Source: Neelides folsomi
Taxonomy: Eukaryota > Arthropoda > Collembola > Neelipleona > Neelidae
DNA length: 64,000 nucleotides
Assembly: GCA_034687125.1 (NCBI GenBank)
Contig: JAQGBZ010000243.1
Location: 33,142 to 97,141, forward strand
Direction of reading: 5' to 3'
Positions 1,019-61,000 of the stretch are shown here, piece after piece. The translations under genes and the position numbers were made by a program. The notes below the pieces were generated by a model that was not told the DNA's origin, searched no databases, and saw nothing but the letters and a program-made list of their open reading frames with translations. Numbering within the stretch: position 1 is the stretch's first letter; each line of letters starts with the position of its first letter.

Positions 1019-1034
1019 TATATATATATATATA
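1019..1034. repeat. (TA)n microsatellite
   Basis: Eight TA units lie inside the first intron of the transposase relic. It is a simple sequence with no visible function. Confidence 0.8.
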
Positions 1035-1251
1035 TTTTATTTTATTTTAATATAATTAATGTTATAATTAATTAACGAGGTTTGATAAGTTTTAACCTAA
1101 ATATAGATATAATTATTATTATTACAGGTTTACGAATTAATAATACTTCAGGAATATTTTGTAAACAATGAAGCTAACCTGGCAGCTTATCTAACCTATT
1201 TTGAGACAACGTGGATTGGGGTGTTAGATAGACGAGGGATTAGGAAAAGTC

Positions 1252-1964: not shown

Positions 1965-2285
1965 CTTATTGATCTGCTATATATTTAATATATTACTGTT
2001 TATTATTATTTTACTATTTGAATCAATTACATTCTAATTGTTTATTTCATAATTGAATTTTACTATTACACCTCTATTTAAAAATCAATTTGTTTATTAT
2101 ATTCTCATACTAATAAACTTAATATTTAATGCAATTTACAATATAATGTATTTATTTTCGATGACTAATATTCACATTACAAATAATCATACTTACCAAT
2201 TTTCGCAATTAATAGTTTTCAATTACCAATCTGGGGGTAATCATAAATTACAATAGGTAATCTGATCCTGTAAATTGTTACTCAA
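1965..2285. other. AT-rich spacer between transposase relic and BTB gene
   Basis: About 320 bases of AT-rich sequence with no coding signal on either strand. If the BTB gene continues to the left, this is part of one of its introns. Confidence 0.5.
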
Positions 2286-2939: not shown

Positions 2940-3124
2940 GATTTTGAAGAGATAGCCACCGTTTAATATAAAAATATAATAGATTTAAAGCATACTAACT
3001 AGTTCAAACAAAGACTAACCTAATTGAACAACTTCAATTACAACAATTACTGAACAATTAATTCTTCGAATAAGTTTTTCGTTCATTTAAATAAGCACCG
3101 ACCTTATCTTTCTATAACAACTTC

Positions 3125-13384: not shown

Positions 13385-13462
13385 TCATTCTCCAAATCGA
13401 GTGCAGGCTTTCTTCCACTTGCACTGGGTGCACCACAAATCACGTCGCTCCATTCCATACAC
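13385..13462 (-). CDS. Glut4EF: Glut4EF last coding exon 7 (C-clamp, residues 455-479)
   Basis: Acceptor GATTTTCAG|GTGTATGG. Encodes [20 protein letters not shown] and TRFGE, then TGA at 13385-13387. It supplies three of the four C-clamp cysteines. C-clamps (also in TCF/Pangolin) contact GC-rich DNA. Confidence 0.93.
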
Positions 13463-25400: not shown

Positions 25401-28400
25401 TTTCCACGCTGGTGTTTTTTTCTCTCCCCTCCTCTCATGCAAGTTGTAATGGAAGGAGGGCGAGGCGGAAGAAGGTTCCAAGGTTTTACCTCTGATCATA
25501 ATATACTCACCCAGTATGTAGTGGAGCTCGGAATGTATGCCAGCAGGAGAGGTTTTCAAGGATTATCGTACCAAGGCTGCGACTCGGGATGCATTTGCCA
25601 ATTCCTCGACGCCATTTGCATTTAAAGGTACTCACTCACAAACGAAATTACTACAATATACGTACAGGTACCTAAATGAGAGTTTTGCAATAATCTCAGG
25701 ATGCAATCTCTCATTCTTTACACGATATACGCCTATTTGTGTGGAGGCCTTAATCCGCCTCTTCGATGTTGAAGCAGCCTTGAGACTCATTTACTATACT
25801 CTGTCTATACACTCACTCTTTCGTTTCGCAAAATTCGTTAGTGGCAGCTCAAGGTGAGTCCCTTAGAGATATAGTCGAGAGGAGCAACAAAACACATAAT
25901 ATCAAATTTGCCATTTATTAAATTCACGAAGGCCGGCCGGCTTTTCATGCCGGTTCCTCAGATAGTGGAATGTGAGCCGGCCGGCTCCCTCCGAATACCT
26001 CACTCTAACATGCACATACATTACATTTACATATAACTTAAGTATGGAGGCCTTCGGGGAACAGTATGCACATACAACATTCGGTCGTAAAGGTGCAGGG
26101 AGCTGCAGTAAAACGCAAATGCACTTTCCTCATCATCCTCGGCCTCCGCTTTGACCCACTTTACTTTTACGATAACTTGCCAAAGAGCTAGATATACCAC
26201 TTGGTACTTTTTATTATGTACTATACATACATAATACATATATGCATATATTCAACATGAAATTCCGCTCTTTAATCCTTAAAATATTCAATGCAACACG
26301 ACACTCCCGGCATTTCCTCATCAACATTTCATAGTGTAAATTCCGGGAGAAGGGAAGAGGTTTAGCTAAATATTCAACTAGACTCATATTCTCCTTCTTG
26401 GAGTATCCAGGGTAGAAAATTGGAGCAATTTAAATAAAGATAACTTCATCATCACCACCGTTGGGTCCTAAATTCTCCACTTTTGAAGAAAGATCCGATG
26501 GGAATTCGCGTTCATAATTTAATTCATCGGAACGGGACAGGAGAGAATAATAATATTTTCTTTTCATTTTATAAAGCATATTTACTTCATCTTGGGAGTT
26601 TCTCTCCTCAGGAGTTTGTAAACTGAAAGCGAGTCGTGCGGAAGAGCCGAGATTATGAAAGCCAGTAAGAAATCCTCGAAGGAGAAGATTACAAAGTGTG
26701 TAAACGAAGAACGGCCGACTTTTTAAAACCCTTCTCGATGAGAATGGGAGCTGAGAGTAAAATGAATGATAATGAGAATAAATATTCGGAGGAGCCACTC
26801 GGAGAGATGTAACTACTTAAATACTCAGCGACGTCAACCTTCCAAGCCTCCAAATCTCAACAGGGGCAGAGGGGATAAAAAGAATTACAAAATGCATCGA
26901 CTGAAAAGCGGTAGCTCAGCAGGGCGATCCACGAGCTTCCCCTTCAATCCACACAAGCCCATCCATATTTCCCTTCATACAATTCCCATCCATCCAGGGA
27001 GGCCGACTTCCAATCTTCTCTCATGAATAGTGAGAGCATTTTGTGAATCTGCTCACCAGAAGGAGAGTCTCTCCAATTCACAATCCCTAACTATGTATAA
27101 GAGCCCTATTCTTCTCCTCTGGGATTCCTATGGGCCTAGTGGAGCAGTAAAGGAGGAGAGCTTTTAATAAAATCAACTCATTCAACTCCTTCATCCTAAT
27201 GAACTCTCAGATTTGAAAAAAAAGGATTCTCTCTAACTTACAGGGAGCAAATCCTCTTTCGACTAAATGGATTTATTCTCTATACAACGAGATCCGCCAG
27301 CCACGCATAAGCCCCTTTCAGACCAACCAATTCTTCATCAGACCCCATTTTTGGATGCATTTGATACAAGGAGTATGGAGGAGGAAATTACATACGCATT
27401 ACCTAATCCCCACAGCTTCTTCTTACTCGATTTCATTTTCACTTTTCCATCCAATCTCATCTCCATTTGATACATTATTCCTTTAATTTCCCTAAATAAC
27501 AATTTACTCATGCAGTCACTTTCATCCTATTAACGACGTCTATTAAACCTTATATACGACTTTGGTTTATTTACCATCCTGGCCATTCTTTCGAGGCTAT
27601 AAAAACTCTTAATTCACTCCACAGAGAATGAGCGAGACGACGACGTGTCTCGCTGTTCTCTTTTAATGAAACTAAAACTAGGAACGATTTCACATTAGCA
27701 TACTACTCTCATTTCACTATTTATTTTCTCACAAACGGCCTCTCCCCATTAATGTGAAATAGGAAGAACGATGAGTTTCAATCTACTCGATTGAAGGACT
27801 CGACTAAAATGTAATGGGGGCATTATTACCTCACCACGTCCAAATTGTCCCGAAACTGATGTGAGTGAGTGAAATTCACGGGTTATTTGTTTTCCTCTTC
27901 ATAATAGGAAGATAGAACTTTTACCTACAATGAGCCAAAAGCTGCTTTAGGAATAGAGACCATTCTTTTCCAGACATATTCTGTATATGAACCAGGATTT
28001 GAAACTCATCTAGTTCCCAGCTCAAATACAAAAGAATACACTTACATAAGTACGTTATACATATGGTACATACGTATTTAGGTATATGCAGTGGATAGAT
28101 AGCCAAAAACCCACATCACATCCACTCAGCTCCGGCGGAATGAAAAGGAAATTAAATCCAATTTTATTGTTTCTCCTTATACAAAATGTTTAATGAGATC
28201 GAAACTTGGAAAGCCGTCTCTCCCAACCATATATAGAAGGAAAATGCGAAATATAATTCTAATCTCTATTTTGTAAATTTAGGCGCATCTTGAAGTCCTT
28301 GGTCGTCCGCCATTGGCTTAATTTCCAACCTTAATTCCAAACTAAAGGGGATGATCAGAGATTCGTGAAACGATTATAATCAACGTTTTCGGTTCTAAAA

Positions 28401-31400
28401 ACTGAATACCCGCCAAAATTTTTGTTCTTATCTTAACAATATTGTACATTATATACTTTTAAAGTAAAACACCCGACAAGATTTGGGTGGAAACCCAAAT
28501 CTTGTCGGGTGTTGATGGAATAGTGAAAAGTTAAAATCGAAATGTTTCACGAATCTCTAATCATTCTGTATTACTTCTTGTTAGATTTCTCTCACTGGGA
28601 ATCCTCCATCATCTCTTTAAATCTCATTAAGGGCAAGGGAAGAATCTCTTCATGCGTGCCGTGTTTAATTTCCAATATTGTGGAATCAGAGAGATAGAAA
28701 GGTAACCTGGTTTAAAAGATCTAGTTTCACTTCACCTCATATCGCGTTTAAAAACTCAAGACGCAAAAGAAACGAGAAGAAATTCTCCCAACGGAAACAA
28801 ACGTATAAATCCAATTGCTCACTTTATATATCAACTGGCTATAGCCTATTACTTATTACTTTTAGAACCCTTTTATAAGATTTTATGTATATGGTTCTGT
28901 GAGATGGATTCATTGAGAGAAAAAAACAAGACTGCGGCGTCAAACACGAAGTATTAAAGGCTATAATCAATTGATAGGGAATGAAACTTGTCGACCTGGG
29001 AACTCATGTTCATTCCTAGTTACCTCAACCTCACGTCCTAATGAGGATTGACAACCGGGAGTAACGTCACTCAGTTCCACAAACACGAAGACAATTTTTT
29101 AACCATTTTTATTCCCTCCACCACGATGGAGAGAAATGAGGAAAAGTTTTTATCAATTGATTCCATACGACCAACTTCTGATATTGCTCGTAAATCATAG
29201 GTAGCAGATATTTCTCATTTCGACCGTCACCGAATATTACTCCTTCCATCCAAATAAGTTTCTCTCACTAACTTCACAATCGCAAGAGTTGGCTTAAGTT
29301 CCCCTTTCTCACAGCTTTAATTCTCCTATCTCCCAGAACCTCATTTCCTCGAAGAACGGAGTGTGTGTGTGTGTGAAGTCTGTATACACACTCGTTGGCT
29401 CCGAATAAGAGACTTATGACAGTTTCAATTAAGAACCAGCATGTGGTTCTCATCTCCACAATGCTCTTGGAATCGTCGTTCATCCGAACAGCTTGAAATG
29501 TAGGGCTCTCTTCCCAGTCAAGACTCTCAAAGTGAGGTCTTGTTGAATAAAGGGAATAATCTTCGTGTTATTCTCTCCTTTTACACCAGGAGGACAGAGA
29601 AAAAGAGAGTATAATCTGATGGGTGATGGATCGTAAAACGAAACTTGGCTTCCCCCCACGAAACCTCATCCTTAATATCCATACCTACCTACATTCATGA
29701 AAATCCCAAGGAATAGGAACATCATCTCGCGCGAGGACGATGAAAAATGAAACAGATCCGTTGAAGAAGGAGAGAGAGAGAAATGCCAAGTTGGAAGACA
29801 TCTTCAACGTGACGAAATCTTTGGCGAGAACCAACTCAGCTGTTCCTTTACGTATTTTTGTCATTCCTCTTTTCTTGCTCAAACCACTACTTCCCTTTAT
29901 AAATATTCAAAAACATTACCCACAATTTCAAATTACTTTCTGTTACTTGCTCAGCATTCAACCTCAACGACAGCTCCAAGGCTTAAGTAATATGCCACAA
30001 CATAATTAGCCCTATACTTTCCATTGGAAGAATTTCTTTATGATTATTACTTTTGTGTTTTATTCTACACTGCTACATCGATGTAAGCATAACTTACTTA
30101 TAATAATATGACGACTCGACAAGGACTTGCCGGTAGGCCACATGGGAAAATGCCGGTAGGAATGCGTTTAAAACCATACAAAATATGTACATAGATACTT
30201 AAGTTGTATGAAATTATGTTTACTTTCCTTCACTCTATCTCTCAGATGTTGATGGATAGGAGAATTTTATTATAATTTTACAACGGGCAAACAAGGGAGC
30301 GTGACAAACACCGGGTTTAAATTAATGAGGATATTTTCTCTAATCAATTCGTGTAATGGAGGAGAGCCGGCTGTTAATGAAGAAGGGAATCAATAATAAT
30401 AAGCTACCTTATATATCATTCTATCCTTTACATCCACAAACACTACAGAGCCGAGTAAATGACTAATGACGTCGAGGGACATGCATATATTTAATCTGTC
30501 ATTATTATTATCATTCTCGATTATTGAGAGAACCAGAAGCAGCCATGAACAATGCCACTTCCAATGTGACCAGATGATACGGCCCATTGTATGCTCTCTT
30601 GTTATTTTCTCATTCCTATCATTTGACACTCTGGTATCATCAGAGTATCATCATCAGCCTCACCACCACTGGTTTCACCCACATACATGGGCTGATGAGC
30701 TCCAGCCTCTTCACTCGGCCTCGCACCATACACAAATATTCACATAATAAATAATAACATTTCCCACTCCCCCATTTACCCGTGACCATGAAGGCTCGAT
30801 AAATAAATAGGATACTTGATATTATTATTCACTCCCCTTCACTTTCCCATTATCTATTTTTTGGTTTCAAAGTCAGCCGGGTTGGTCGATAGCAGAGCAG
30901 TAGCAACTTTGTGTTGAGAACTCTCGGCTTCCACACAATACCTCTGCATTGGAGTGTAACCTTTAAAAGCCCCTTGCCTCTTATTCGTCGAGAATGTGGC
31001 TCTCGAGAGTGTAAATAAGCATTAGGAAAGATATATAAGGTATACATTCATTATCAATAAGATATTCCCTTGTCGCTCTCTTGAGAGGACAATTTATCTC
31101 TGTCACTACTTATCCCTACCTTGAAGCGGAATGAATGGGAGAAGAAGGGGCTACTACCGAACAAACTAATTACCGTTGCTGTTGTCCCAGTGCGGAGAGT
31201 GTGGGCTGCAAGAGAGGCTCATGAGGACCATGGCTGCAGCACATTCGTCCATCACATCATCGCCCTGGAAGGAGACGAGCGGCTGGGAGAGGGCTCCTGA
31301 ACTCGGCCGCCGCTTCCTCGACCTGAAATATTAAAATTAATCAGACTTCTTCTCTTTCATTAAGCTTCGTCGTAAATCCCAAACATCTTATTTCTTAAAT

Positions 31401-34400
31401 AGGATTTATGCATTTGGATGGATTAACAAATCTTAAGAGGATCGTAGTCAACCAAGTTGGTCATAAATTGAAAAACCACGGAGAGCTACAGAGGAACAAG
31501 GCACAAACAGGCGTTGTCCATCAGCCTCCATAGTAAATATTACAGCCTGAATTTCAACACACCTTTAGGATTGAGTTGAGGATATGAATGTCTAAAGAGG
31601 GGCTGCAGAGTACTTTGTAATCAGAGTGGGGACCGGAGTCTCGCCTCGATCCATTCGACTCAAACGGTGAATCTCTGATCCCACAATGGATTCGCCACAT
31701 TGTTAAAGAGTCGAAGGGATTTATCCCTAAGTAAATGCGTGCCCATTTATACACTCTTTCCTCTTCGATTTATCCTCGGTCCCATATCCTCGATCCTTTG
31801 GCCATAAAGAGAACCGTGAAACTTGTAACTCACCGGCTCAAATCCTCATCACTCCATCGGAGAGAACAAAAGGATCGAAATTGCGAAGGGCACAAGAGTT
31901 CCTCGCTTCACTCTCCTCTAACGAGAGAGGCAGGAGTGAGGTTCGGCTGCTGGCAAACTCAATCCGAGATTTGTATTAAAGAGGAGAAACGAGGATGATG
32001 AAGGCAGGGAGGCTTCTCCCCGTCCCATTGTCGCCCAACAGAAAACAAAGCCATAATTTATCTGGGAGCCAGCACAATACAATGAAATGGCCATGGACCA
32101 CTACTAAATAAAATATCTCTTATCAAAAGGAAGAATCTGAAACTCATCTCTCTCCCACCGGTCATTCTCCAGCGAAAAGTCAACGTGCTCTGAGTCTATC
32201 TCCTCCCATCATAAACCATTATTTCCCCTATTTTACAATACACTTTTTTACAATACACAAATTCCACAAAATGCTTTATTGCACCTCCCCTCTCGAGGAC
32301 ATGAAAGATATTAGCCGAAGATGTAGCCAAGACACCTCGAATCTTCACCTCCCTAATTTCCAGTTACACTGGACTTGGTAGTTACTACTTACTCCTCAAG
32401 CCCACGAGTCTCATTCCTCAACGTCCATAATTATTCCTCATTATCTCTATCTCTCCAATGGCATGCGACCAAAGTCGTCTCGAACACACACATATCCCTC
32501 CATAGCTCTCTGTTTCAGAGACGTGTTATAAGAAAACGCACTTACTCTACTCCTCCCTAGTACAACGGGTCTTAAAGGTCGCCTATACATCTTTTAAGTC
32601 TCATCGGGTTTCAAAGGGTGACAGGTGGAATGGAGAATGAGAATCACCGTCTCATCATTTTAGAATTTCCAAGACCCTTCTCGTTAAGTTAATAAGCCTT
32701 CCTTCCCAATACCAAATTTCCCTTTGAAGGGTTGTGGGTGTGAAAAGGAAATAAATGGGGCCTTATTTGACTCCATTTCGCGATAGGTTCTGAATCCATC
32801 AAACCTATTAAGGACACATTTCCGCTCACAATCAACTTCCTTGAACCGGAGCATACTCTGAGGTTAATATATCAAAGTTGAATAATTAATGAAGGATCGA
32901 GAATAAATTCGAATACAAATGGTCTCTAAAGCACAATGCGGACACATGAAATTCGAGTACATTGTAAACCTCGAATCAAAATACAGCGAACGAGGTTGTT
33001 ATGGTGGAGAGCAGAATAAAAGGAAGAGATACTTGGTCCTATATTACTTGTGCGTGGATCCTCTTTGACTCTCAAACCATAGGGCCAAAGATAAAACGAC
33101 GTCAGGAGAATGATCTAGCGAATTCCTATGGTTGAGAGTGAAGTGAAAGTTGGCTTCGTTCGCTCTCCCTCCGACCCCTCTAGTAATTGTATCATTATTC
33201 AATCAAAATGGATGTAGATGGAGATTGCGAGTGTTTGTGTATGAGTGCGAGAGTAGCCGCCGGACTCCTTCGCCCGCCATGACACAATACCGCCATTGTT
33301 ACTCACAGTGAACCAACTCCCCTTCGCCCAGTCTCGTAATAACGGACACATAAATTCATTTATAATCCTCATACAATGTGAGCGACAATTACAATATTGT
33401 TTCAGAAAATAGTTTTCAAGCATATCGTTCTTAGAGATCCAACCTTATTTTCCTCGAAGGAGTTTCAGGGACATTGGATTCGAGAGGCTTCATACATGAG
33501 CCATGTAATCGCGTTTCATAAAAAATCACCGCTGCCCACGCAGTAGCAATTGGGAAGTATATAACATCGATAATCTATTGTGCACTGCGTACCTGTACAA
33601 TTTACGTATGTACCATATACTGTATAAATATACTGTTGTAGTTATACTACCTAACTTATAACTACTTTTACTGCGATGTGAATATTTGAAATTTTGGCTG
33701 TAGCATAGCCCTTAATGTTAAGTTCTTTCAAACTTGGGGTTAGTATATAACGCCAATAGTCGTGTTATTATGGTCCTTAAATCCGTCAAAAACAATCTAT
33801 GAGTCAGAGGAATAAAATTAGGCAAAAGGTCCAGGGTATGCGGTAAAGGCATGAAAAGCTGTCGACAAAGTGTTTAAAAACTCGGAGGCGGACATTGGGA
33901 TCTACGCAATGTGGAAGTTATAATACATATGAGAACTACTGCGGAATCCAATGACGTCGATGAATGCGAGTTGAGGGACGACTTAATTATCTTCTTATGT
34001 ACTGCCTACCTTCCAAACTCCCGGAATCTCATAATAAGTATGCAGGGCGAGAAGCGAACATCCGTCTCTTCGCAGAAGGAAAACACCGTTTCCTCTCCTT
34101 CTTAAGCTTCTTTGACTCATGTATATTTTCTAAATCTCCCTCGCTGCGGAGAGAGAGAAATTCGAAAGGCAAGCGGATTCTTCACCGGCCGGCCTCCGGC
34201 TTCCTCTTCACTAAATAAACTCTATTATACAAGAAGTTCGGGAAAAGGGCCGTGGGTTGATAAATCCTATTTTTTAAAACATCCTAGAATAAATCTCTCG
34301 AAGGAGGAAGCTGAGGATCCAAAATTCACTTTTACTCCAAAAGTAAACTCAAACTAAAGTGGAGGACATGAAACACTCATACATAAGTATAAAGAGAGAA

Positions 34401-46400: not shown

Positions 46401-49400
46401 TACGTAACTAATGCTCGACAAGCTTTCTTCATAAGAATCATTCTTGTATGCCTAACCCATCACGAGCCAATAGGTAAGTATGTGTATACTTATATTCATT
46501 GCTTGGCTTTAAACAAGTAAAATAGATATAAAATATTACAATATTCTCGCACACAAAGTGTAATGAATTAAGGTATCATTTAAACTCTTCAAATCTCCCA
46601 TCTCCTCAGTCTCTCCACATTGAATTCCCTAAAACTAAATATTCCTTTAAACTTGTTTGTCTATGCAATATGGAGTTGAACTCTCTGGGGGAGTTGATAT
46701 GTTGTATGTAGATAGAAAGAATCTTAAATACTTACTTCGAGCCAACTTAATCACTAATCACAAAATTCCTCTTTCGCAAAAGGCCAGAGGTAAAAAGATA
46801 TCTTTCTCCCCATGCACGCATCTTTCCTTTACACACACTCACACACACAAATACAACATCTTCCTACCCTCATCGAACTCCTTTGGCTGTAAAATGTAAA
46901 TTTTCACAGCGTGAATTGTAAATTTCCTACACAGATCATAAAAACACCTTCTATGTCTATTTACTTATCTATATTTATCAGCAGGCAAATGCAATAAAAG
47001 CAATTGGTAATATCACCACTACGAGGTCCTATTAAAAGTATTTTACTAACTCGGGTCTCCTGTTAGCTGGATAGTTATATCCGTTCATAATAATGCATTT
47101 AACCTTATCGACTCCACTCTCGTCATGATTCGAATTCATTGAAAGTATTTATTCACAAAGTAGTTTTATAGTCCAATTCAATCCTATCTCAATAAGGTCT
47201 CGTATATGAAATTCTCAATCAAGAGTCCTCGTTCGTAAACACATAAATCTAAGTCGTTAAAATTAGAAATAGAAAATCCTTATCACCATCAACATTGTTC
47301 ATTAATATTCAAAATTACGACACATGCTTATATAATTGCCTTTATGGAGCGAAATAAATTGAAGTGTGAGTGCAATTCCAACCGACACCAATACAAAGAG
47401 AGAACTGATAATATAAATATTATTTTTAATTTTAAAAGCTTCTTACTTACACTTTCACGAAGTTGGCTTCCACCAGTATTATTCGAATATTCAATATGGT
47501 ATAAAATTCAATTCTTCCCTAATGATTATGAAATTAATAATTAACCGAGTCTTGTTTTAAGACAAGGAGTTGTGGAAGAGGAAAAACGACATTATTGCTA
47601 TACTGACTGACTGAGCTTACAAAATTAAATAAAATCGGAACGGAAGAAGATAAAATTGGTAGTTGAAGGGCGGCAGTGGCGGGCAAAGTGAGTGATGTCT
47701 CGGCGCGAGAGCCAATAGAGGTGCTGCTGGGGGCTGAAACAACCACCGGCCGGCGAACCCTCGACGTCAATACACGGTTCTCTATATGTGTCTGGAATAG
47801 CAACTTCCCTTGACTGCAAGACTTTCCCCCTCGTCTGTCAGCTGGGCATATTTTGGTTTTTGGAAGGGATCCCTTCAAGGGCCCTGCCCTTCCACACTAC
47901 CCATACCCTCGAGGAACAAAGACGAATAAAAACTCGTTTTCTTTTACTAAAAGATCCGGCATCGTCTCCAACTCCCTTTATTTGTACATGCGCCTTTAGG
48001 AATCCCCGAAATTGCGCACCAAAAGATCCCTGGGCCAACGACGATGGAACACCATCCAAGTTCTAATACACTATCTCCCAACTCACAGCCTCCATGATGC
48101 TCAATAGGTGTGTGGTTTTATACATATAAAATAAAACATTTTAGCCCATTCTGATGAAACATGAAATATTCCTGTTCAAAAGAAACTGAGATACTTCAAA
48201 TAAGTGAACTTGAGCTATTGAAGTTAATAGAAAAACTTGAAACTCTCAAAACATTTTTCCCTCAACATTATTAAATCAAAATGTACATAATCCATTAAAT
48301 AAATTTACGACATGCATTAATGTGTCTTGTGTATAAAATGAACGGACTCGGCGTCCCCTTCGAATGGTCATACGTATGTAATGAGTTGAGATTGATGGTT
48401 CCTTTTTCATCTTTATGAGTAAAACGATACAGAGAAGGAGTGAATACGAGAGAGAGAGAGATTTGAGGAAAGATAAACCCTTGTATGATATACTGACTTC
48501 AAAAGTTAAATAAATAAACAAGAAAGTCCAAAATAAGAGAATATAAGAGAAATGATAAGAAAGAGCTTGAGGACATGGCGAGGGCAATGAATGTGTGGAC
48601 TAAATTATTAATGCACACGAAAAAAGGAAGATTTTGAAAAATTATTAGTTTTCTAATTAGCATAGCATAAATAATGTGATGGAAGTTGTAAATTAGAGTC
48701 TCAAAGGGCCTTTGAACCTCACAGCTCATAAACGAAAAAGTGAAATGTGTTTTTTAAAACACTGAGGTTCATCTAAAGAAAATTCATAATTGAGACACAT
48801 GAAATTAAATTCTCTCAAGTGTTTGAAAAATAAAGATGTGGAAAGTTACTAAAACTTTTTCAAACACATGGACCTCATATGTAAAACGCTTACACGCTTA
48901 TTTCACTTTTACCTCTTCCAACGAATGTAAAAATGACTAATTTTACCCAATTATTTTGTTAAGTGCCATTTAGTGAATTGTTATATTTTAACACAGGTAG
49001 GAGAGAATAAAAATGAAGAATACGTGAGGAGGATAAAAATGCATAGTGCAAGCAAGTGCACTTGATCACAACCGCGAACACGAAATTGATAATAATAATA
49101 TCCTACCATTTTATCGTCTACTTATAACTGTCAAGGATAAAGCAGTCGAGTCGTTCTCTCACGCATCGGAGGACTCTTCAGTGCTCCCATTGTCTCCCAT
49201 CCATACAACATACAGATTCAAATGAAGGTAAATATTTCAAAGTTTAAAAACTCACCTCGTTGTTGGGTACACCCGTGTTGGTGCTCTGAGGCACAATGTT
49301 GATGAGAACTTCATCGATTTGTGGTCGATGGTACACGACCGTCCCGGTCACTTCTCGACCGTTGTGAGTGACGAAAGTTTTCTGACCGCTTCGAAGCTTT

Positions 49401-49651
49401 AAGCTATTAACTGAGCCAAATCCTGGCCCAATTAGTTCCGACTCTGAAAACTCCCTCGTCTCCCCCGCCTCAAACCTGACGACATAGCGGGAATTTGAAG
49501 TAATCCCCGTGTGGCAGTTGTTGAACGTGAGCTCGTCGGGGTTCTTTGACCCGATGATGAGTCCCGGGTGGAAAAGGCCTGTCTCCTTGCACGGGGCACA
49601 GACTCTCGTCCCCACTATGGACCGCTTGGCCAACCTTTTTCCCGCAGACAT
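13385..49651 (-). CDS. Glut4EF: Glut4EF / ZNF704-ZNF395-SLC2A4RG family transcription factor, seven coding exons
   Basis: Coding exons in order are 49256-49651, 39565-39731, 31174-31322, 16973-17306, 16612-16787, 13685-13824 and 13385-13462. Every junction is GT-AG with matching phase, and the total is 1440 nt (479 aa). Domains: an N-terminal family domain (about 1-187; [45 protein letters not shown]); the conserved [19 protein letters not shown] segment (about 213-231); a Ser-rich linker; a C2H2 finger with C324, C329, H342, H347; [11 protein letters not shown] (about 360-370); and a C-terminal C-clamp ([21 protein letters not shown]) with C452, C465, C468, C474. Human relatives (GEF, HDBP2/ZNF395, ZNF704) are nuclear DNA-binding regulators of metabolic and developmental genes. 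Start: the ATG at 49649-49651 is the first after an in-frame TAA and opens [11 protein letters not shown]. The gene spans over 36 kb because of very long introns. Confidence 0.93.
13685..13824 (-). CDS. Glut4EF: Glut4EF coding exon 6 (residues 408-454)
   Basis: Acceptor CTTTCCAG|ACCCAGAG, donor CGTAAA|GTAAGT (phase 0). Encodes [18 protein letters not shown], a basic Pro/Ser stretch ([16 protein letters not shown]), and the start of the C-clamp (TKKCRK, first Cys C452). Confidence 0.9.
13825..16611 (-). other. Glut4EF intron 5 (2.8 kb)
   Basis: Non-coding, AT-rich. I see no exon, repeat family or GCCGGC site in it. Confidence 0.6.
16612..16787 (-). CDS. Glut4EF: Glut4EF coding exon 5 (residues 349-408)
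   Basis: Encodes [20 protein letters not shown], a Ser run, then [15 protein letters not shown]; donor GAAG|GTAGAA (phase 1). The FYYTEVEV block is a family hallmark directly after the zinc finger. Confidence 0.92.
16788..16972 (-). other. Glut4EF intron 4 (185 bp), tandem acceptor at its 3' end
   Basis: Short GT-AG intron. Its 3' end on the minus strand reads TATTATGAGCAGGCCG, so two AGs three bases apart (edges 16787 and 16784) can both be used in frame. Confidence 0.8.
16973..17306 (-). CDS. Glut4EF: Glut4EF coding exon 4 (Ser-rich linker and C2H2 finger, residues 238-349)
   Basis: Acceptor ATTTTAG|CAGGGATG, donor TTGGG|GTAAGC (phase 2). A Ser/Val/Gly-rich stretch (about 241-300) is followed by [19 protein letters not shown] and then the finger [20 protein letters not shown] with HVRYAH. 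Spacing is C-x4-C-x12-H-x4-H, as in ZNF704 and ZNF395. Confidence 0.92.
20931..20976 (-). CDS. Possible alternative first coding exon of Glut4EF (15 codons)
   Basis: ATG at 20974-20976 opens [15 protein letters not shown] and runs into a strong donor, ACGAG|GTAAGA, in phase 1. Exon 4 of Glut4EF (17306) requires exactly phase 1, so the join would be in frame and yield a short isoform keeping the zinc finger and C-clamp but lacking the N-terminal domain. There is no homology evidence; a chance match is quite possible. Confidence 0.25.
22194..22208. repeat. (GAT)5 microsatellite
   Basis: Five GAT units in Glut4EF intron 3. Confidence 0.75.
25932..25987. promoter_or_regulatory. Cluster of four overlapping GCCGGC sites
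   Basis: GCCGGCCGGC occurs at 25932-25941 and again at 25976-25985. The second lies in a perfect 14-bp palindrome GAGCCGGCCGGCTC (25974-25987). A further GCCGG half-site lies between them. It sits in an AT-rich intron of a gene whose mammalian relatives bind GCCGGCG, so a protein-binding site is plausible but unproven. Confidence 0.4.
28351..28564. repeat. Imperfect inverted repeat with a perfect 21-bp hairpin inside
   Basis: Outer arms 28351-28371 and 28544-28564 (ATGATCAGAGATTCGTGAAAC type) pair at 20 of 21 bases. Inside, 28468-28488 and 28493-28513 are perfect reverse complements (AACACCCGACAAGATTTGGGT) with a GGAA loop. No clear target duplication is seen. A small fold-back (MITE-like) element is the likeliest reading. 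Confidence 0.65.
29361..29375. repeat. (GT)7 microsatellite
   Basis: Seven GT units in Glut4EF intron 3. Confidence 0.75.
31174..31322 (-). CDS. Glut4EF: Glut4EF coding exon 3 (residues 188-238)
   Basis: Acceptor ATTTCAG|GTCGAGG, donor AACG|GTAATT (phase 1). Encodes [18 protein letters not shown] and then [19 protein letters not shown], the family's central conserved segment. The KRRP stretch could act as a nuclear localisation signal (inference). Confidence 0.9.
31323..39564 (-). other. Glut4EF intron 2 (8.2 kb)
   Basis: Non-coding. It contains GCCGGC sites at 34188, 38044/38048 (fused as GCCGGCCGGC), 38643 and 39092, and a short ATT repeat at 36531-36544. No exon is recognised. Confidence 0.6.
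39565..39731 (-). CDS. Glut4EF: Glut4EF coding exon 2 (residues 133-188)
   Basis: Acceptor CTTTCCAG|GGCCCATTT, donor AATAT|GTAAGT (phase 2). Encodes [18 protein letters not shown], then [18 protein letters not shown], a charged helical segment strongly conserved in insect Glut4EF proteins. Confidence 0.9.
39732..49255 (-). other. Glut4EF intron 1 (9.5 kb)
   Basis: No coding exon is recognised. It contains GCCGGC sites at 42782 and 47749, the latter in the GCCGGCG form, plus a (GA)7 run at 48448-48461. Open frames such as the minus-strand one at 42808-43230 show no familiar domain and no splice logic. Confidence 0.6.
48448..48461. repeat. (GA)7 microsatellite
   Basis: Seven GA units in Glut4EF intron 1. 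In arthropods GAGAG runs can bind GAGA factor; there is no direct evidence here. Confidence 0.7.
49256..49651 (-). CDS. Glut4EF: Glut4EF coding exon 1 (residues 1-132)
   Basis: Opens [20 protein letters not shown] and ends [12 protein letters not shown] at the donor GAG|GTGAGT (phase 0). It carries the first half of the N-terminal family domain, including [10 protein letters not shown] and [11 protein letters not shown]. Its G/C-rich codons contrast sharply with the flanks. Confidence 0.9.
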
Positions 49652-49845
49652 AGCTACGTCTTCACGCAAAGTCCATTCTAACCGGCTCACTGGGGCAAGA
49701 CCCAGCGAGAGCAAAGGAGAAGCAATGACCAGCAACGATGAACACCAACAAGGTTACCGATTGTCCACGCTCTCTGGCAGCTTGAGTATGTCCTTATATA
49801 GTAGGATCACTTCAATTACTCCCTGGCCCGAAAATACCTCGTCAC
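49652..49845 (-). other. Glut4EF: 5' UTR part of Glut4EF first coding exon, with splice acceptor
   Basis: Upstream of the start codon the minus strand reads back to TTATTTCAG|GTGACGAGG, a good acceptor with exon edge at 49845. An in-frame TAA lies between this edge and the ATG, so the segment is untranslated in this frame. The acceptor implies at least one further non-coding exon upstream (higher coordinates), which I could not place. Confidence 0.55.
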
Positions 49846-52327
49846 CTGAAATAAAAGAACGAGAATAATTAATAAAGTTGTTAAAGATAATACGAGTGTG
49901 AGCATCAAACAGGAAACAATGGCACCTTGCTAACTACGCATCTCTTCCTACACGCTCATACTGACTCATTCGTCTTTCTGTTATTTTATAGAGTCATTAA
50001 AAGGCCCTGGTTCAACTCTTCCTATCTCTTACAAACAGTCGAAGAGGAACGAGTGAGTTGAGCTTAAATAAAATAAACTAATCAGTTGAGTTCCTGGCAG
50101 TTCCGCCTTCTATTATTTAGTTTAAGCTTTTAGTACGCATATACCCTTGTTTTTTTACATTTTATATTATTGTAATGAACGTAATAGGCACATAGGAGAA
50201 AAAGTACTAATTCCTTCCAACACGACGTACTCACAGCGTCACACCTTTAAACTTCAATAGTAATAAAGTTGACCGACTTAAGATGAGAGAGTATGTGTAG
50301 AAATAATAATCCATTCGAATTACAGTGAAGAGCAAATGAGACACGCACTATTACCTTTTGATGGCTCTGAACCATTGGTGATTCAATGTTGATGTTTGAA
50401 AATATGCACATCCTTCTACGGACCAAGTCCATGTAGTGTTAATTTATATATTTACTTGAAACTATCTGTATTCTTCCCATCTTAATGTACGTATGAGTAC
50501 GTTGTAAATTAGACAATGTTAGCATATTATATGTGAACGCGTGAGTTTAATGTGTATTACTGTATAAGTATTCCACTGCCACGAGCAAAGATATTCACAA
50601 TCAGTGCGTAGTAGGGGCTTTGATTCAATTCTCTACTGCGATCTAATGGTGCTGAAGAAGGAGGGCTAGGGATTGAATGTAGTTATAAATGTCTTCTTCT
50701 CTCCCCGCTTCCTCCTTCCAATGATTCAATGATTGTGGATTGTGTAAAAAGAGAATAATCGTTTTGTTAAAGTCGAAGAAGTTGAATGCAGTTTCAACAT
50801 CTCTGATTATGATGGACCGTGATAGGAAAGTGAGGGCGACCGTTGGTAAACGGCAGCCGGCTTTATATAAGATATACCTACTTATGTGTATATAAAATAT
50901 ATATATTGAAATCTCTTTCGACCCACATCATTGGCCAGGTATATACCCCATCGAGTAAAATGTATATAAAGAGTTCCTGCGGTGGGAGCCAGGGATGGAG
51001 AGTTAAAATGGGAAATGAAGGAGATGCCCGGGGGCCGGAGGGATCCCAGGAGTGAACAGGTGACAAGAAGACCCGACAACGCTGCTCCACCCGCCCTTCT
51101 ACGCATGTAACCCTTCCTCTCTCGGTCCTTCAACAACAATGGGCTTCATCGACGAAGGCTCGCCCAAAGTCATCCTCCCATCTTTTTTATTTAATTTCAC
51201 AGATATTATATTTTACTACACCACCGGCGGATGAAAGGGAGTTCAAAAAACGTTATAAATGAGTTTTCGAAGAAATCAATTCCACGTTAAGTATATGCTA
51301 AATCGATGAAAAAGATAGTGGAAGGTATATATATATAATATTAATTTTTTATGCAGAAAAGGGATGATCATAATAATAATAAAAGGTAACTCCTCTCCGC
51401 TCAACTCGCACTCAACTCAATCGTTCAACCCAAACTTAACTGTGTGAGGAGAAAAAGAGGATTTCCCAACACTGAGGTGAGGTGAAGGAGGAGGAAATTG
51501 ACTTTTTCCTCATTTTCTAAGATCCTTTGACTCATCATTCTCGTCACTCTCCATCAAGGAGTGTAATGCATTGTATTATTTTCTAGTAGGATTTGCAAAG
51601 TTGAGAAACTCATATGAGTTCATTGGAAAAAAAATACTACTTACTCTCATAGCATATAGAAAAGTCAACCTTTGACAAGACAAAGAATTACATTCTTTTA
51701 CATACATTAAAATTAATAGCAGCCCTGTCTTTGGGAAAAGTAAGAATTCTTAAATATTATAGAGATATAATCAATTTACAAAAGATATATAATTTTAATT
51801 TCATAAAAGATAAATAATTTCACAAGTTTACAACAACGATTAGGAAAGTCTTCTCGAATAAAGAAGAGCGAATGTTTTAAAATGGCGGATATCTGGTATA
51901 ATATTTTATGTTTTATAATATAATAAATAATAAATATTTTAATAAATCTTATGAAAAACACTTAAATTAAATTGATAACGATAAATTGAGTTATATTATA
52001 TTTGAAACACTTACAAAGTCGGTGAATTTCCGACGATTTAGAGGATTATTGCCACGAAGGAATAATGTCACAAAGGGATAAGTTCATTAAGAGTAAATTG
52101 ATGGGATTTTCAATTTAGGAAACTGGATGAAAATGAGAGGAAAATTAAAATTTCTCTTAAAATTATTTTGTACTCTCAAGAGATATTTGTCAGGGGGCCG
52201 ATCCACTTTGGGTCAGCGGGATCGATTGTGAATTGAAGTATTGATTATAGGGACTCGGACTGGTGGGAGTGTTGAGAAGGCCCTTGGGGTGTCTTGAGGG
52301 CTATTGAAGAAATTACCCGGTAATCTC

Positions 52328-52591
52328 TCATCTCTCAATGAGAGTTTGGATGAGAGTGGCTTTCGTCTCCGGAGGAGAAGTTGTGGTTGAAGCGAGAGTC
52401 GAAGAGAAACTGCGTATCAGCTCAGAGAACTCTCTGTAGCTCGCATGGGGTGGAGGAGCCGGCCGAAACGACGAGTGAGCCCGACCAGCTGGGTTCGCTT
52501 TCCATGCGTGATCCTCGTCCGCTCCTGCTGGCTGCTGTTGTTGTTCTTCAGGAGGAGGAAAAGGGACGACCGCTTCGTCGTCCCTCACCAT
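52328..52591 (-). other. Unassigned 87-codon open frame in a GC-rich island
   Basis: From ATG at 52589-52591 the frame reads MVRDDEAVVPFPPPEEQQQQ and continues Ala/Pro/Ser-rich to a TGA at 52328-52330. Composition is much more GC-rich than the surroundings. The frame cannot extend Glut4EF through its exon-1 acceptor, because an in-frame stop intervenes there. It could be a 5' UTR exon, an alternative N-terminus or chance. I recognise no domain. Confidence 0.25.
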
Positions 52592-55500
52592 CAACCCAGC
52601 CACGTTTCCACCTTCCGTCCTCGTGAGCCGGCCGGAGGGGAAGCCGGGCCCGGCGAAACAACCGGCCAGCGATCTGGCAGCCCCCGCAGGGCGGACCAAG
52701 AGGAGGGAAACAGCTGATGGCCCACTACGTCACACGGCGTTGACCTCAATTAGGAAAACAGCGAATGTTGATCCTCCACTCTCTCGTCATGATGTGCATT
52801 ACATATAAAATTTATACATGTTTCCACAGAGCTCTCGTCTTCGCCCGGAGGCTCGCAACTCCGCCCACTTGGCGGGCGACCCCGACCTCTGCCCTGGATC
52901 ACTCCTCATTATTACCTTCCTCCCCAACACGGACTCAACACTCCCCCTAAAGAGTGTAAACAATACATAATGATAGTAATAATATTCCATTTGCCCCATA
53001 ACTCACTGATCACATTTTATTGGCAGAGAGATTTCAATATTCAAATTAATTATTACCACATTGTTTAAATATTCCCCTAATAATAATCATAATCAAGCGG
53101 CTTGATTTCATTAAATTATTATTGCGTCCTCATATGGCCAGATTATTATTATTGTTTTTATTTAGCATTAATAATCGGCTGTGCAGAGCATTCTTAACTA
53201 TTATAACAACTAATATAATTTTCATGCAGCAAAAAATCTGTGTCATTGCTTATCCTACACGTAGCATGTAATATATATTACATTATGTATTACACTTGCA
53301 TATTATTTATTTGCCATAGCGTGATGAAAAAGCTATCTCAGAGTTAATTAAAGAACTGCTTTTTGGCATTAGGGAACTACGCTTATTCAATATACGAGTT
53401 TTGAGAAAGAAAAATTACATATGACGTATGTTTACACATATACCCACTTTAATTTTTTCAAGGTACTTAGAATACACACCTACGTGTGTTTATACGTAGG
53501 TAAGTACAGATATACATAAGAGGAGAGTTATTAAAAAGACCACACTCGTTTTTCCCTCAGTTTTTCTTAATACACAAATCTCGTAGACTCATTTATCCGA
53601 AGAGTGTCATAAAGTGGCTATGGCGGAGGGCGTCGGATCATGCATGATTATTTTGATTACAATATTACACGTACACCCCATGCTCTTTCCTCATCCATTC
53701 CAACGGCATCGTGGAAGGGCGGTAGTGGTGCGGATTAGCCACAGTTTCCCTTTTATGCCCTCACGAATTACGAAATTCAATGCATAAATTTCCCTCTCTC
53801 CGTCCCCTTCCCCGCACCCATGAGTCCTTCAATAGGAGTAATATGTGTAATAATCATAATACACCTCCCCTCGTTGAGGAGGGAAAGCTCATTAAGGCGG
53901 AGTGGCGGGATGAGAACATATTCCTTCGCTTCCAAACTCGGGCACACGAAAGTAAATAATCGGGGAGACTGGGAGGGCCAGGGAGCAGTCGCTCCATGTT
54001 CCCTGTCACTCATCGATCACGGCCTTTGATCCTCTTGATAAGAGAAGAAATGACGAAGAGGGCGAAAAGCGCTGCAAACTTGCCGGCCGGCTCACAAACA
54101 TTCAGAAGTGTCCCTTCAAGGCATCACAAATCAGGAAGAAGGAAGAGTCGTGTCGTAAAATGACCAGGCCCAGATTAGTAAGATTATCTCTTTATGGCTT
54201 AACTCTCTCATTCGAGCTTCAATACTCTCATAGGGAACATTAAAGTTATATCTCCCATTCTATGCATAATAATAATGGAGCATTCCACTATACTATAATA
54301 TACAAGTAAGTATCGTTAGATCCAGTATGAGTTCAGAAATAAATGGTATAAGAGGGGAAGAAATAATACTTGACTTATTAATAAGAAGAGCCTCCATCAG
54401 CTCAACTCATTCTTAAAGATTTCAATGGCCCGGAGGGAGCACTGAAACTTACTTTTCTTCTACAGTGAGAGAAATTGTTAGTTGTTTCATGCTAAGCTTA
54501 GCTCAATGTCTCTGCCATGTCTCCAATATATTAGTATAATGTCAGCTTGAGTATAATGCTTATTTTCTGATTAATCTTGTCGTCTAAATCCCTCAAATTA
54601 TTTATTAACTTTTCCCCATGGCTCAAGATGTATACATATAATGAGCATAGGAGAGCATTTACATTATTAGCATTTACTCACAATCAAATTGATCATGATA
54701 CCTTTAAGTTTGACGTCATATTACTTATTATTATTATTATAACCTATGCACATTCATGCACATTTTTAACAAAATGTTGAAGGTCAAACCGTGAATATTA
54801 GGAAGCCGGTACCGATTGCCTTGTCGCCGGGCCTCAACTCCTGGCACGAAATCCTAAACATTCACTAATTCTCTATAACCTCTCCCTCTCCTTAAACTCA
54901 TCTCCAAGTCCCGGCTTTCACTCCCGGCCTAAATTTTAAGTAAATTTCATGGGAGTCCCTTTTTTCAGGAAGGATGTGAGCCAAGTAGGTTCATGGTTAC
55001 TTGAACTCCATTTTCCCGGATTATTGCTCTAAAAAATTTGAATTTCCAAGCCCCATAATAGGAGCAGCCCAATTAAAAGAAATATGAGCAAAAGGAGAAA
55101 AAAGGAAGGGAAATGGAAATTAATACGTGGTCCATCATCCATAATCATTCCTGCATTGTTCCGTCATTTCGAATAAATTCGGTGGTTCGTTAACTCGGGA
55201 CAAAGATAATAGGGAAGATCAAGTTATAAGAAGGCCCCAAAAAGTGGTTCCCGCACGAGTTCCTCCAAACTCACTCTTTTTTATCTCTTCCTCTTCACGT
55301 TCCCTGAGAGGAGCATATAGAATTATGGAAGGAGGCGAGGGAGCACATCCGCTTATGGCGAGAGACGTCGAGCAGATAACCGAGTGGAGACCAGAGCAAA
55401 TCTCCCCTTTTCACGCTCCAGGTTATGATGGAGCTTCATTTCCTCTCCTTCGACTCTTCTTCACATTGCATTCACTGAGATACTCTACATACTTCTGCAT

Positions 55501-57359
55501 ATACTGGATCCATGCACTTACAGTACAAAATGAAATCAACTCATCGTCAGCTACATACAGGAACCTATAATGTATATGTACTTATGAAGAATCCTGAGTT
55601 CCAGCAAAGTATTAACATTCAAATGCATATACCTACTATACATTTTGAAACTAAACATTTGTACTTTTGTCTATAGAACACGGATTGTGATATACATGGT
55701 CATAATATTAAACATAACCTGGTATATTACATATTATAAGACCGGTTCCAGTCGCCGAAACTTGTCGAGTAGCCGGGGGAACTTCGAAAGAGTGAGAAAT
55801 GTGGAGTGTGAGAAATGAGTGAGAATCTCATAGAGAGACAGGAGGGAAGTATTCGGGAGACTCGTCTCCTGACACTGTATAATTGAGGCAGAGTCGACTA
55901 TAATCAAGGAAGGCTCTCGACGGCCCACTCGAACCAAGCTCTCAAGGGCTCTCCCCATCAGAAGTAAATGGAACGGAGTGAATCTCCTTCGCCTGCCCAT
56001 GGCATCATGATACTTCAAACTTCAATATCCACCATCCACTCTCGAAGCCAATTCTCTCGTGTATAACCACAGTGCATTAAGGACAAGATTACCTATAGAA
56101 CTCTTCTCTATCATTCGCTACTCATATGAAGTTGATAAACATTAAGCCTTTCCTAATTCAATATACATTTATACGTACCTCGCTCATGATTCAAGCCCAT
56201 ATTCGAATAATTTTCAACGATTCGACTTTCAGCTATACAATGTATACAATATGAGAGCTTATTATATGTACTAGTTACATGAACCTTAAATCTGGAGAGT
56301 ATTTATGGTATGAGATATGCTTTTACTTTCATCAGCACTTGAGAGGAGACCTGCTGGCTGGAGTTTTTCAAAGTGGCCGGCATGGCCGGCTTCAAACAAC
56401 GTGTAAAACACCAATATAGCATTAGTGATATACACATACCATTCACTTCACAACTTTAAGTATCGTTATATATCTCCTCGTCTATCCTTTCCTATCGAAA
56501 GGCAATGACGTATATGATAGAGCACGAAGGGAGTTCTGGAAAAGTATATTATAGTTTACAAAAGTATTAGGGCTTAATTTCAACCAGGCTGGAGTGGTTG
56601 GTAAAAGGCTATGATGGTTGGGCTGGAGTTTGAGGTCTTGAAGAAGGAAATGGAATCTTTTAAGGATTCTTGCTTTCTGTATCTCGACTCACAAACACTC
56701 CCATTAGGATCCCTTATTACTCAGTAGAGAGGTGAGCCTGGGAGAATAAAGATCCCCTTTCAGACCCTGCATACAATCCCTCACATGGAGAGGACTCTTG
56801 CAGGTTTTCGAACCCTTCAACTCGACTGACTTCATGAGCCGATGGCTATAGTCGATTCATGGGGGTAAAAAAGTGTTTTGTGTCACAACGTGTGAGGAAA
56901 GAGCATTGCATTATAAGGGAGAGGGGAGTGACCTTCGTCAATCTCACTCCGTGCTTCCATCACTCCGAAGATTTCCTCTTATCCCACATGTATTCATGGG
57001 AGATATGGAGGGGTAATATATGAAGGGCATTATTGTAGGGTGTCAGGAGGATCCCTTGGCCACTCATTGTGGAGACGCAAGTTTACGACGTTATCCGACT
57101 CAAAAGGCCCATTATGGTCCGATTCCCCACTGAGGGTTTCCCCCAGTGAGTCCCCAAGATCTCAACAACGGCTGACAGTAAATTTAGGTCCTAAATGTCA
57201 TTTTTCCAATTCTCATACAGAGTTTGGGCCAGATACGCGAAAATCTCATTTAACTTCTCTTTCTCTCTGTGCACCATTCCCACCCATCCCATTTCCCTTC
57301 CTCCACCCTATTTATTATCTCTCCCGAGCTCGAATTCCCACCCATTGGAAAGAACAGAA

Positions 57360-58030
57360 ACTCGTGAGAGCCTGGAGCCCGGCCGGCGAAGCAGACGCGA
57401 ACCGGAGATGGCCGACACACCGACGGCCCGGCGCCCAACATCATCATCATCAAATCTTATATATATGAGGATTCTCCTTTGGTTCTGCTCTTCTTCAGTT
57501 CAACTTCACTCCTTTCCTTGGCAAATCCCTCTCTACCTCTAAGAAATAAAATGCTGAGTGAGCGTGACTGAGGGGGACCCCAAAACCTTCCAATAAACAT
57601 ATGAAAGCTCTTCTTCACGACGTGAACTAAAGGGCATGCACACCCGCCTCTCGAAAGATACATTCGCTCTCTCAGATTTGTTCTCGTTGAGGTTGAAGGG
57701 GGATTGGAGAAGGGGCGTCGAAGGAGAACGGCCTTGTCAGACCCTTCTTTCGACTCTGTTGTGGATGTTCCAGGCTGCGGAGCCCCTCCCTGGCCACCCC
57801 CGACTCAATCCATTTCTCCCACCCGGGAAGGTCGCCCTTCTCTCACCCGTGCCCGGGATCGAGTTCGTGGGCGGAGGGAGGGAGGAAGGGCAAACGGCCC
57901 CGGAGGAACTCACGCCGGCTCCCTCAACCCACTTCTCCCTACAAGTATAGCAACAGGGAGTCGGACGGATGGTGGAAATCAGCCCACAATTCGGCACGTG
58001 TAAGGGGAACGCCGGCCGCTCTGGAGTTCG
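57360..58030. promoter_or_regulatory. GC-rich, CpG-rich island with three GCCGGCG sites
   Basis: A compositional island in AT-rich DNA. GCCGGCG occurs at 57382-57388 (+) and, as the complement, at 57913-57919 and 58010-58016. Such an island upstream of Glut4EF could be a promoter or a first non-coding exon. No TATA box or start site can be assigned. Confidence 0.35.
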
Positions 58031-61000
58031 ATGGGGAAAGCGTATATGACCTCATATCCCCATCATGCCTGCGTCTTCCAGGGCCAAATCCAATTCCCTG
58101 TTCATGAGGGCTAAAGGAGAATCTCGGATTATTTCACTCCTCGCGCCACACGTAGTCACCTCCGCAAGGGTTGTTTCTCCCAACAACCTCAGCTGTCCAT
58201 GGCTCAACGATATGCTTCCACAACATTGGGGAGGAAGGAGCCAGCTGATGAGGAAAACATTCGATTCCTCACTTCTCTCCCTCATAACACTCGGCTATAA
58301 AGGAGCACAGGTCATAAACCGAGAACAAATGAAGAGTCACAAAGCGAGAATTCGTCTAGACTCCCTAAACCTTAACTCATCCTACGTCGTACATTTTATG
58401 TCCTTAGTATCCCTTTTTGTTCTACCTATACTTCTACCAAGGTATACCCTTCGCCAAAAACTTTGTCTTCTACAATGTTCCATACAGTTTTAGGGTTAGT
58501 GTAAGTGCAACTCGCAGGGCAGTCATCTTTGAATCCTCACTTCAAACAAAGACACAATATGACAAAATTCCTTTTCGTGGACTATGACAGTATCGTATTT
58601 CCTTCTCATTCAACTCAACAACCAGAGTTCTTAATAATAGTAATAATAATAAGCTTCGTCGGCTCTAAATGCCTCTTCTGCCTTCGACCAAGAGGTCGAT
58701 TGAGAATTTAGTAACAATGTAACAATGGAAGAAATTGAATGGATACTCGCCAGCCGCTCCCATACACAACTTACACATCCAGTTTTATGAGCGGGTGGAG
58801 TTTGTGAACCTCGCCCTGAAATCAGGGCCACTTGCGATTTCATCTCTATTTGTAAGTGTCAATGAGACTCCGTCTTAGCTCCAAGACTATGGATAGAGCA
58901 GGGCTTAATATTTATGAATTGTAATCCTGCACATTGGAGGGTATGGACAAACATATTCAACTACACATATTAAGATACATATTATAAGAAGTCTTGATCG
59001 TAGACTCTGGAAAGAAACTATAGAGAGAATATTTTATTATATCCTTGTCATTATCTCAGCACTCATCCGCCTCCACTGCCGGCAGTAGAATTCAATTCCA
59101 CATCTATACAAGAGTATTATTGGTGTAAGCTCCGGGCTTGTGTGTGTTTTTGGTCAGAGTGCGGGTTTAGCTCCCTGAAAATGAGAAAAACTCCGTCGTC
59201 GTGTTGGGGCGCTCTTAGAAGTAATCCATAAACAAACGACCCGTTCTCTAAATATGTATTACTGGACACGGTGAAGGAACGTGGTAGGAGCAAATATTAA
59301 TTCCATGTTCAATAACCATCCTCCCTTTATATGTTGGACGGGGCCACCGCACGCTCTGTACATGTTTAACACCCGGTTCTCTCCTCCTCACGAAGTGAAT
59401 ATAAGCTTTCTCCAAATACTCACTTTCAATTTTGATATGAATTCAGTCCCTTCAATTCCACCCACTTTCCGAGTTTCTCTCACTCAAAAGCTGGAGGATT
59501 CGGGAGAGAAAATTAACATTTCATTCCCATGAGAAATGCCAAATACCTATAAGGAGGAGGTTTGTAAGGCATGAATAAAAAATTAAAGGACAGGTTACCA
59601 CTTCGTCCCAAAACTCACAACCGAAAGAAGCTGAAATGGAGAATTGCATTAGAATTTTAATGGAAATAAATACCCATGTCGAGGATTATAATTCCCATAC
59701 TCCTACCCATGGAGGAATAATCGATTCGGGGAACCCCAAACACATACAGTCAAATGTAACGTGTGTAAAGGCTCCGCCGGACATGGCTCCGACTCGTAAT
59801 TAATTTATGTTCCTTCTCTCCTTTCCCTTGTAAAATATACGGTTGAAGGTTTCCTCTAATTCCTAAACTATTATGTGGAACAATATTCCTCCATGTCTCT
59901 TTCCACCTTCTCCAGAGGAGGCAACACGTTTCCATTCCTCTTCCTTCATCCTTCCATATATTATCTCCTTAATAGAAGTAAATGTCGGCTCAGATTGGCA
60001 TATCTGTAAATTACAAACGTAATGCTATCCAACTGTTGTTACATATTGCCATTGCTCCTCGGATCCTCTCTATGTAGATATAAATTCGTCGAAGTGAATC
60101 TCTACAATATTAGAAGCTTTGTTAATAAAAGATTCATGTAGCCGGTACTGTGGTTGTGTTTCTGCACTTGGATTGCATGCGTGTAGATTCCATATAATTC
60201 ATATATATGTCTAATTGTATGTTTAATAATAATAAGTATAGTTTCCTAAAGCATTAACAATATGCGGTAGGTGTTTAGGTATGAAGTGCAGTAAACATGT
60301 TTTCGGGTTCCCTCAACCACTTCTCCAAAAATTTCCAGTTTTCCTCTCCCATTGTTTCCCTTCCGGAAGGCAATGAGGTGTAATTGGGGAGGAGAAGGAT
60401 GTTCAGTTTAATAAAATATATCAAAGAAGGAAACAAGGAAAGCATTAAATTTCCCAACGTTAAAATATTCCGCTCTCCCCATCTGCCTCTTTTATGCTCA
60501 TCGTCAGCGAAAAACGTTGCATGAAAACTCGTTGAGTACGTGAGCGGAGAAATCCGAATTACTCTTCATTTCAATACCCAGGGACTCATTATCGGAGTCT
60601 CTAATCTCAAATGAAGTTAAAATATTAAAGCCGGTAATTACGTCCCTTCCTCCCAAATGGAATGATAAACGGTCGGATGAAGTAATATAAATGTACCCAT
60701 GGATGAGACCATCGAGTTGAAATGTAGTGGAGAGACTTTAATGGATCTCCGCACCGCCCGGAATGAGACAAAATTAAATTATGAGTTGTCGCTTAAATCA
60801 AAGCTCGTTTCCATCACCTTACATCTCTCCAGAGAATCACATACTACGAATCGTCAGCCTGTGGAATGTTCCATATGGAGCTCATATGTATCAAATAATA
60901 TGTGGCTTCTATGTATTGACGGCATGTATTTGGTTCAAGTTGTATTAAATGCTGTGATGCTATCACTCGACCTCTTACACCAAGGTAAAAGTAGTAACAA

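Follow-up and report, generated by a model that had tools for sequence, protein, structure and literature searches.

The closest described relatives of the gene considered here are SLC2A4RG (HDBP1/GLUT4EF), ZNF395 (HDBP2/PBF) and ZNF704 of mammals and Glut4EF of Drosophila, all of which have a DUF4772 domain and a C-clamp in common with it. We take DUF4772 to be the mark of this Glut4EF/SLC2A4RG/ZNF395/ZNF704 protein family. Homotypic clusters, in which many sites for a transcription factor lie at its own gene, are a common arrangement. Here we analyze a stretch of 64,000 nucleotides from the springtail Neelides folsomi (contig 243, positions 33142-97141; genome of 75.1 Mb, 75,104,828 bases, in 840 contigs), referred to below as the window, in which the palindrome GCCGGC is clustered over the introns and upstream region of a Glut4EF relative. 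The locus resembles homotypic self-site clusters in that one word is repeated many times across the intronic and upstream sequence of a regulator gene; binding by the product of that gene would be a prediction here.

According to the available portions of PMC5339479, ZNF395 and SLC2A4RG contact DNA via the C-clamp alone, CCGG is required for ZNF395 binding, and helper-like sites take the form C(C/G)GGC(C/G). The CCGG-type target of ZNF395 matches the core of the word found at our locus; for the mammalian relatives, however, the published CCGG is short, whereas the word enriched here is a longer and strict palindrome. The initial annotation of the window had stated that mammalian members of the family bind GCCGGCG. 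This consensus was not confirmed; we found no text pairing ZNF395 with GCCGGCG, and none joining SLC2A4RG with SELEX (systematic evolution of ligands by exponential enrichment) or dealing with 7DTA. No mention of autoregulation or of a member's own promoter was found in PMC3781154, and no wider literature search on this point was made.

Results

The window holds 23 copies of GCCGGC, the first at position 25932, and this recount agrees exactly with the starts listed in the initial annotation and with its statement that the first 25.9 kb are free of the word. When overlapping pairs are merged, 19 sites remain. The remaining 33 kb of the contig, to the left of the window, contain zero GCCGGC, and the right edge of the window is the end of the contig. 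The genome-wide total of 2682 corresponds to 2.29 per 64 kb, giving the window a 10-fold excess, and none of 100 dinucleotide shuffles of the window reached 23 (mean 2.20, maximum 6). By both measures two or three copies per 64 kb are to be expected, as had been anticipated, and the density observed here is not typical of the genome. Block shuffles of positions 25901-64000 (blocks of 50, 100, 200 and 500 bases, 200 shuffles each) gave means of 1.85-2.50 and a maximum of 8.

The cluster is real and is centred on one word. Four matched palindromes composed only of G and C summed to 12 in the window against 11.7 expected from the genome (CCGCGG 0 versus 2.15, GGCGCC 1 versus 1.51, CCCGGG 5 versus 4.24, GGGCCC 6 versus 3.80), and in the region all nine classes of one-base variants of GCCGGC ranged between 0.6 and 2.7 times expectation, compared with 13.3 times for GCCGGC itself. 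When words were ranked blindly against 200 kb of random genome DNA (20 of 100 drawn stretches, 10 kb each), the top-ranking 5-, 6-, 7- and 8-mers were CCGGC, GCCGGC, GCCGGCC and CGGCCGGC, respectively. The random sample itself held 2 copies of GCCGGC versus 5.1 by local shuffling, where the genome average would give approximately 7. CGGCCG, unlike GCCGGC, is high in this random DNA, with 15 per 200 kb versus 4.3 by local shuffling. Other words enriched in 25901-64000 were ATACGTA (18 versus an adjusted expectation of 3.2) and TAATAATA (33 versus 7.6).

On the sequence of its DUF4772 domain and C-clamp, the gene is a relative of Glut4EF, in keeping with the assignment made previously. The C-clamp, with its four cysteines, was joined by hand from two exons and matches human SLC2A4RG at 27 of 31 residues (7dta, E 1.2e-15), the two C-clamps being nearly identical. 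A search of the genome with the C-clamp as query returned three matches. Two are the exons of the gene, at E 6.4e-12 and E 0.107; the third lies on contig 15, has E 0.137 and contains a stop. Below E 0.1, this gene is therefore the only one with a C-clamp match in its own genome, at a sensitivity that could miss a TCF C-clamp.

None of the 23 copies of GCCGGC lies within the identified exon open reading frames (ORFs). Between the C2H2-like and DUF4772 ORFs there are twelve (0.38 per kb), and the DUF4772 ORF has the other 11 on its upstream side (0.77 per kb), as detailed in Table 1. A purine precedes the site in 36 of 46 flanks, or in 28 of 38 once the 8 G that are forced by fusion are subtracted, and RGCCGGCY fits 14 of the 23 sites. 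The four fused sites reported earlier were all recovered as GCCGGCCGGC, which has 26 places genome-wide (a complete list), 4 of them in the window. Two of these four lie 44 bases apart, while on the only other contig with two the distance is 90 kb, so that no other 64 kb holds two. A 13-mer, GTGAGCCGGCCGG, is indeed present three times; its first position, 25972, was given correctly, whereas the copies placed at 52625 and 54082 start at 52623 and, on the minus strand, 54083. GAGCCGGCCGG has 16 matches genome-wide, 4 of which are in the window at three places. For GCCGGCCG, 14 of the 394 genome-wide occurrences are in the window, at 10 distinct sites, compared with 5 in the best 38 kb elsewhere (contigs 1-28, approximately 20% of the genome). 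Only for the fused 10-mer GCCGGCCGGC is the Glut4EF locus thus shown to rank first genome-wide; for the hexamer, no stronger locus was found.

Of eleven further words analyzed for co-occurrence, only ATGCCGG reached P 0.014, uncorrected. We take SMAD-like motifs to be GTCTG and GRCGNC. Near the 19 merged sites GTCTG was not above random; GRCGNC was found at 6 of 19 sites versus 2.5 within 50 bases (P 0.029) and at 8 of 19 versus 4.4 within 100 bases (P 0.051), values that are uncorrected for twelve tests and are not relied on.

The G+C content of the window rises from 28.7% (1-13000) through 37.2% (13001-25900) to 39.5% (25901-64000); the random sample has 32.7%. Scans of the whole window with Rfam and for tRNAs produced no matches, and ten chosen open frames at 38-64 kb had no Pfam match above the cut-off (best DUF5364, E 0.075). 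Table 1 also lists a transposase fragment and a neighboring gene.

Table 1. Coordinates of exon ORFs, GCCGGC sites and other features in the window.
Feature	Position	Strand	Remarks
ORF with exon for second part of C-clamp	13388..13480	-	
ORF with first part of C-clamp	13616..13861	-	..RGDTKKCRK, then GTAAGT splice donor
Glut4EF exon ORF, C2H2-type finger CX4CX12HX4H	16969..17328	-	finger seen by eye; Pfam: none above cut-off
Two fused GCCGGCCGGC sites	25932..25985		25932-25941 and 25976-25985; second inside GTGAGCCGGCCGG
GCCGGC at 30366 and 34188	30366..34193		between C2H2 and DUF4772 ORFs
Fused GCCGGCCGGC and two single GCCGGC	38044..39097		fused 38044-38053; single at 38643 and 39092
GCCGGC at 42782 and 47749	42782..47754		between C2H2 and DUF4772 ORFs
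Glut4EF exon ORF with DUF4772	49244..49735	-	first coding exon found; PF15997, E 2.4e-28
Densest part, 11 GCCGGC	50856..59083		upstream of DUF4772 ORF; starts 50856, 52458, 52627, 54082, 54086, 56376, 56385, 57382, 57914, 58011, 59078
MULE transposase domain fragment	627..1055	+	PF10551, E 2.9e-07
Neighboring gene, two ORFs with ABC1 atypical kinase domain	4334..5264	-	PF03109

Discussion

The best reading of the cluster, which we favor with moderate confidence, is that it consists of candidate sites for Glut4EF itself and hence may be indicative of autoregulation. The introns and upstream region of Glut4EF would then form a homotypic cluster of sequence-specific putative binding sites, with RGCCGGCY as the preferred site and GCCGGCCGG(C) as its frequent doubled form; Glut4EF, through its C-clamp, would most likely be the binder and would thereby set its own level. 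From the nearly identical C-clamp, we infer that this protein likely binds GCCGGC. The earlier suggestion that the sites could be where the protein binds its own gene is supported by the enrichment, the identity of the gene and, in the available portions of PMC5339479, the CCGG-type target of its C-clamp relatives, and it is weakened by smaller clusters at other loci, which the same word probably also serves. A broader formulation is more tentative, and we would give it somewhat less than an even chance: that invertebrate Glut4EF binds RGCCGGCY via the C-clamp, most strongly as the doubled GCCGGCCGGC, that it exerts self-control through approximately 19 sites in 33 kb, and that the word is reused at other developmental regulator loci. 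Negative feedback seems the slightly likelier direction, because the accessible text of PMC9890238 describes fly Glut4EF as having a repressive domain that contains an AAxxL motif.

Several observations weigh against this proposal or against parts of it. With respect to the negative sign, AAxxL was not found in the identified exons, and a minus-strand search for [LIVM]xAAxxL gave one match, at approximately 31340, outside them; moreover, the mammalian relatives are reported to act both as activators and as repressors: ZNF395 activates a gene set (available portions of PMC5339479), and the action of HDBP1/2 at the HTT promoter is termed ambiguous in the accessible text of PMC11546943. With respect to the word itself, CGGCCG occurs 16 times in the window versus 3.98 expected, 10 of the 16 overlapping GCCGGC and 6 being separate, and GCCGGGC, a 7-base word in which the palindrome is lost, is raised as well (6 versus 0.82, 7.3-fold). 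Strong enrichment is confined to the full palindrome although the requirement in the literature is for a short word of the CCGG type, a difference that the proposal does not account for. Finally, the clustering is not exclusive to Glut4EF. Contig 1 carries 7 GCCGGC within 15.6 kb, stretches of contigs 9 and 13 carry 6 and 5 per 10 kb, and on contig 13 four homeodomain matches, of which three share a frame of 1984 residues, lie within a GCCGGCCG cluster at 234-288 kb.

Given these smaller clusters, GCCGGC may have a wider regulatory use, with either Glut4EF or a different factor as its binder. In the latter case it would serve as a general regulatory word at those developmental loci of this genome that are richer in GC, Glut4EF would be one target under heavy regulation, and the likeness to the family's site would be coincidental, an explanation that we consider possible but rather unlikely. 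The cluster on contig 13, which encloses a multi-homeodomain gene, is consistent with it, as are the two stretches that are similarly dense over 10 kb, although the densities on contigs 9 and 13 are biased upward because both stretches were picked for GCCGGCCG clusters. The contig 9 stretch (230-249 kb) is GC-rich (45%) and contains clustered GCCGGC, and it yielded no identified gene. In contig 1 and in contig 2 to 559 kb, the best 64 kb held 7 and 6 GCCGGC, respectively; the best 64 kb of contig 1 held 7 CCGCGG and 9 CCCGGG, and modest clusters are therefore not peculiar to GCCGGC.

The association of the word with gene families also bears on a general regulatory role. We used the GCCGGCCG places of contigs 1-28, which are complete there and make up 99 of the 394 occurrences (one further row, on contig 29, was left out), and interpolated contig sizes from the 27 that are known. 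Homeobox exons lay within 10 kb of 8 of 79 merged loci versus 2.1 by chance (P 0.002), and RRM exons within the same distance of 0 of 79 versus 0.9, a leaning toward homeobox genes that favors the general word. However, a control GC word (100 of 112 occurrences used) leans the same way more weakly, with 4 of 98 versus 2.1 within 10 kb (P 0.15) and 8 of 98 versus 3.7 within 20 kb (P 0.032), and part of the GCCGGCCG association is therefore due to base composition. Further points against a general word are that the merged loci showed no significant association with HLH or zf-C4 genes in these contigs, that none of the families tested was significantly associated with the 22 GCCGGCCGGC places lying outside the window, and that such a word does not account for the Glut4EF locus being stronger than any other found. 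The family rows were entered by hand (homeobox 88 of 93, HLH 46 of 47, zf-C4 20 of 30, RRM 62 of 90), those left out being mostly neighboring exons of the same gene, apart from one RRM row, on contig 92, that is not a neighbor. Among the homeobox matches, those at 97-382 kb of contig 20 lie in a row, all on the plus strand, and are possibly a Hox cluster.

Alternatively, the sites may be Helper sites for TCF/Pangolin, the other known C-clamp protein, and the locus a Wnt target, but we find this improbable. Helper sites are C-clamp targets, as proposed for the sites described here, and are likewise GC-rich, and in the available portions of PMC4154663 the fly TCF/Pan Helper is GCCGCCR, while palindromes like YGCCGGCR are noted as being called twice in motif counts. 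The differences lie in HMG pairing, in the flanks and in the Helper word itself. Of the 19 merged sites, 0 had SCTTTGW within 50 bases versus 1.1 expected and 2 had CTTTGWW versus 1.9, and an HMG word lay within 20, 50 or 100 bases of 0 to 3 of the 19 sites, which is not above random. GCCGCCR was not clearly raised (5 in the window versus a mean of 1.88, with 5 of 100 shuffles reaching 5), GGCGGC stood at 1.4 times expectation in the region, and the flank preference at our locus is R..Y rather than Y..R.

An origin in base composition, CpG richness or a mutational process acting on a GC-richer stretch appears similarly improbable. The region does exceed the random sample in G+C content, which across the 19 sites averages 48% in the 100-base flanks, and CGGCCG and GCCGGGC are raised along with GCCGGC. 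Nevertheless, G+C content does not explain the excess, because it is not reproduced by block shuffles (down to blocks of 50 bases), the four matched palindromes or the one-base variants, and simple base composition as the cause is largely refuted. The least probable explanation is that a dispersed repeat or a local duplication carries the sites, as the three copies of GTGAGCCGGCCGG could suggest. In a comparison with the window and approximately 277 kb of loci, the 306-base stretches around the 19 merged sites had no other match at E 1e-3, so that the dispersed repeat family named in the initial annotation as a ground for refutation was not found in that DNA; in addition, the fused 10-mer GCCGGCCGGC has so few places in the genome.

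Should binding of the palindrome by Glut4EF and control of its own gene prove true, the targets of Glut4EF would be readable from sequence, by counting one palindrome across the genome, and the locus would supply a precise DNA target for an invertebrate C-clamp protein together with a candidate feedback loop.

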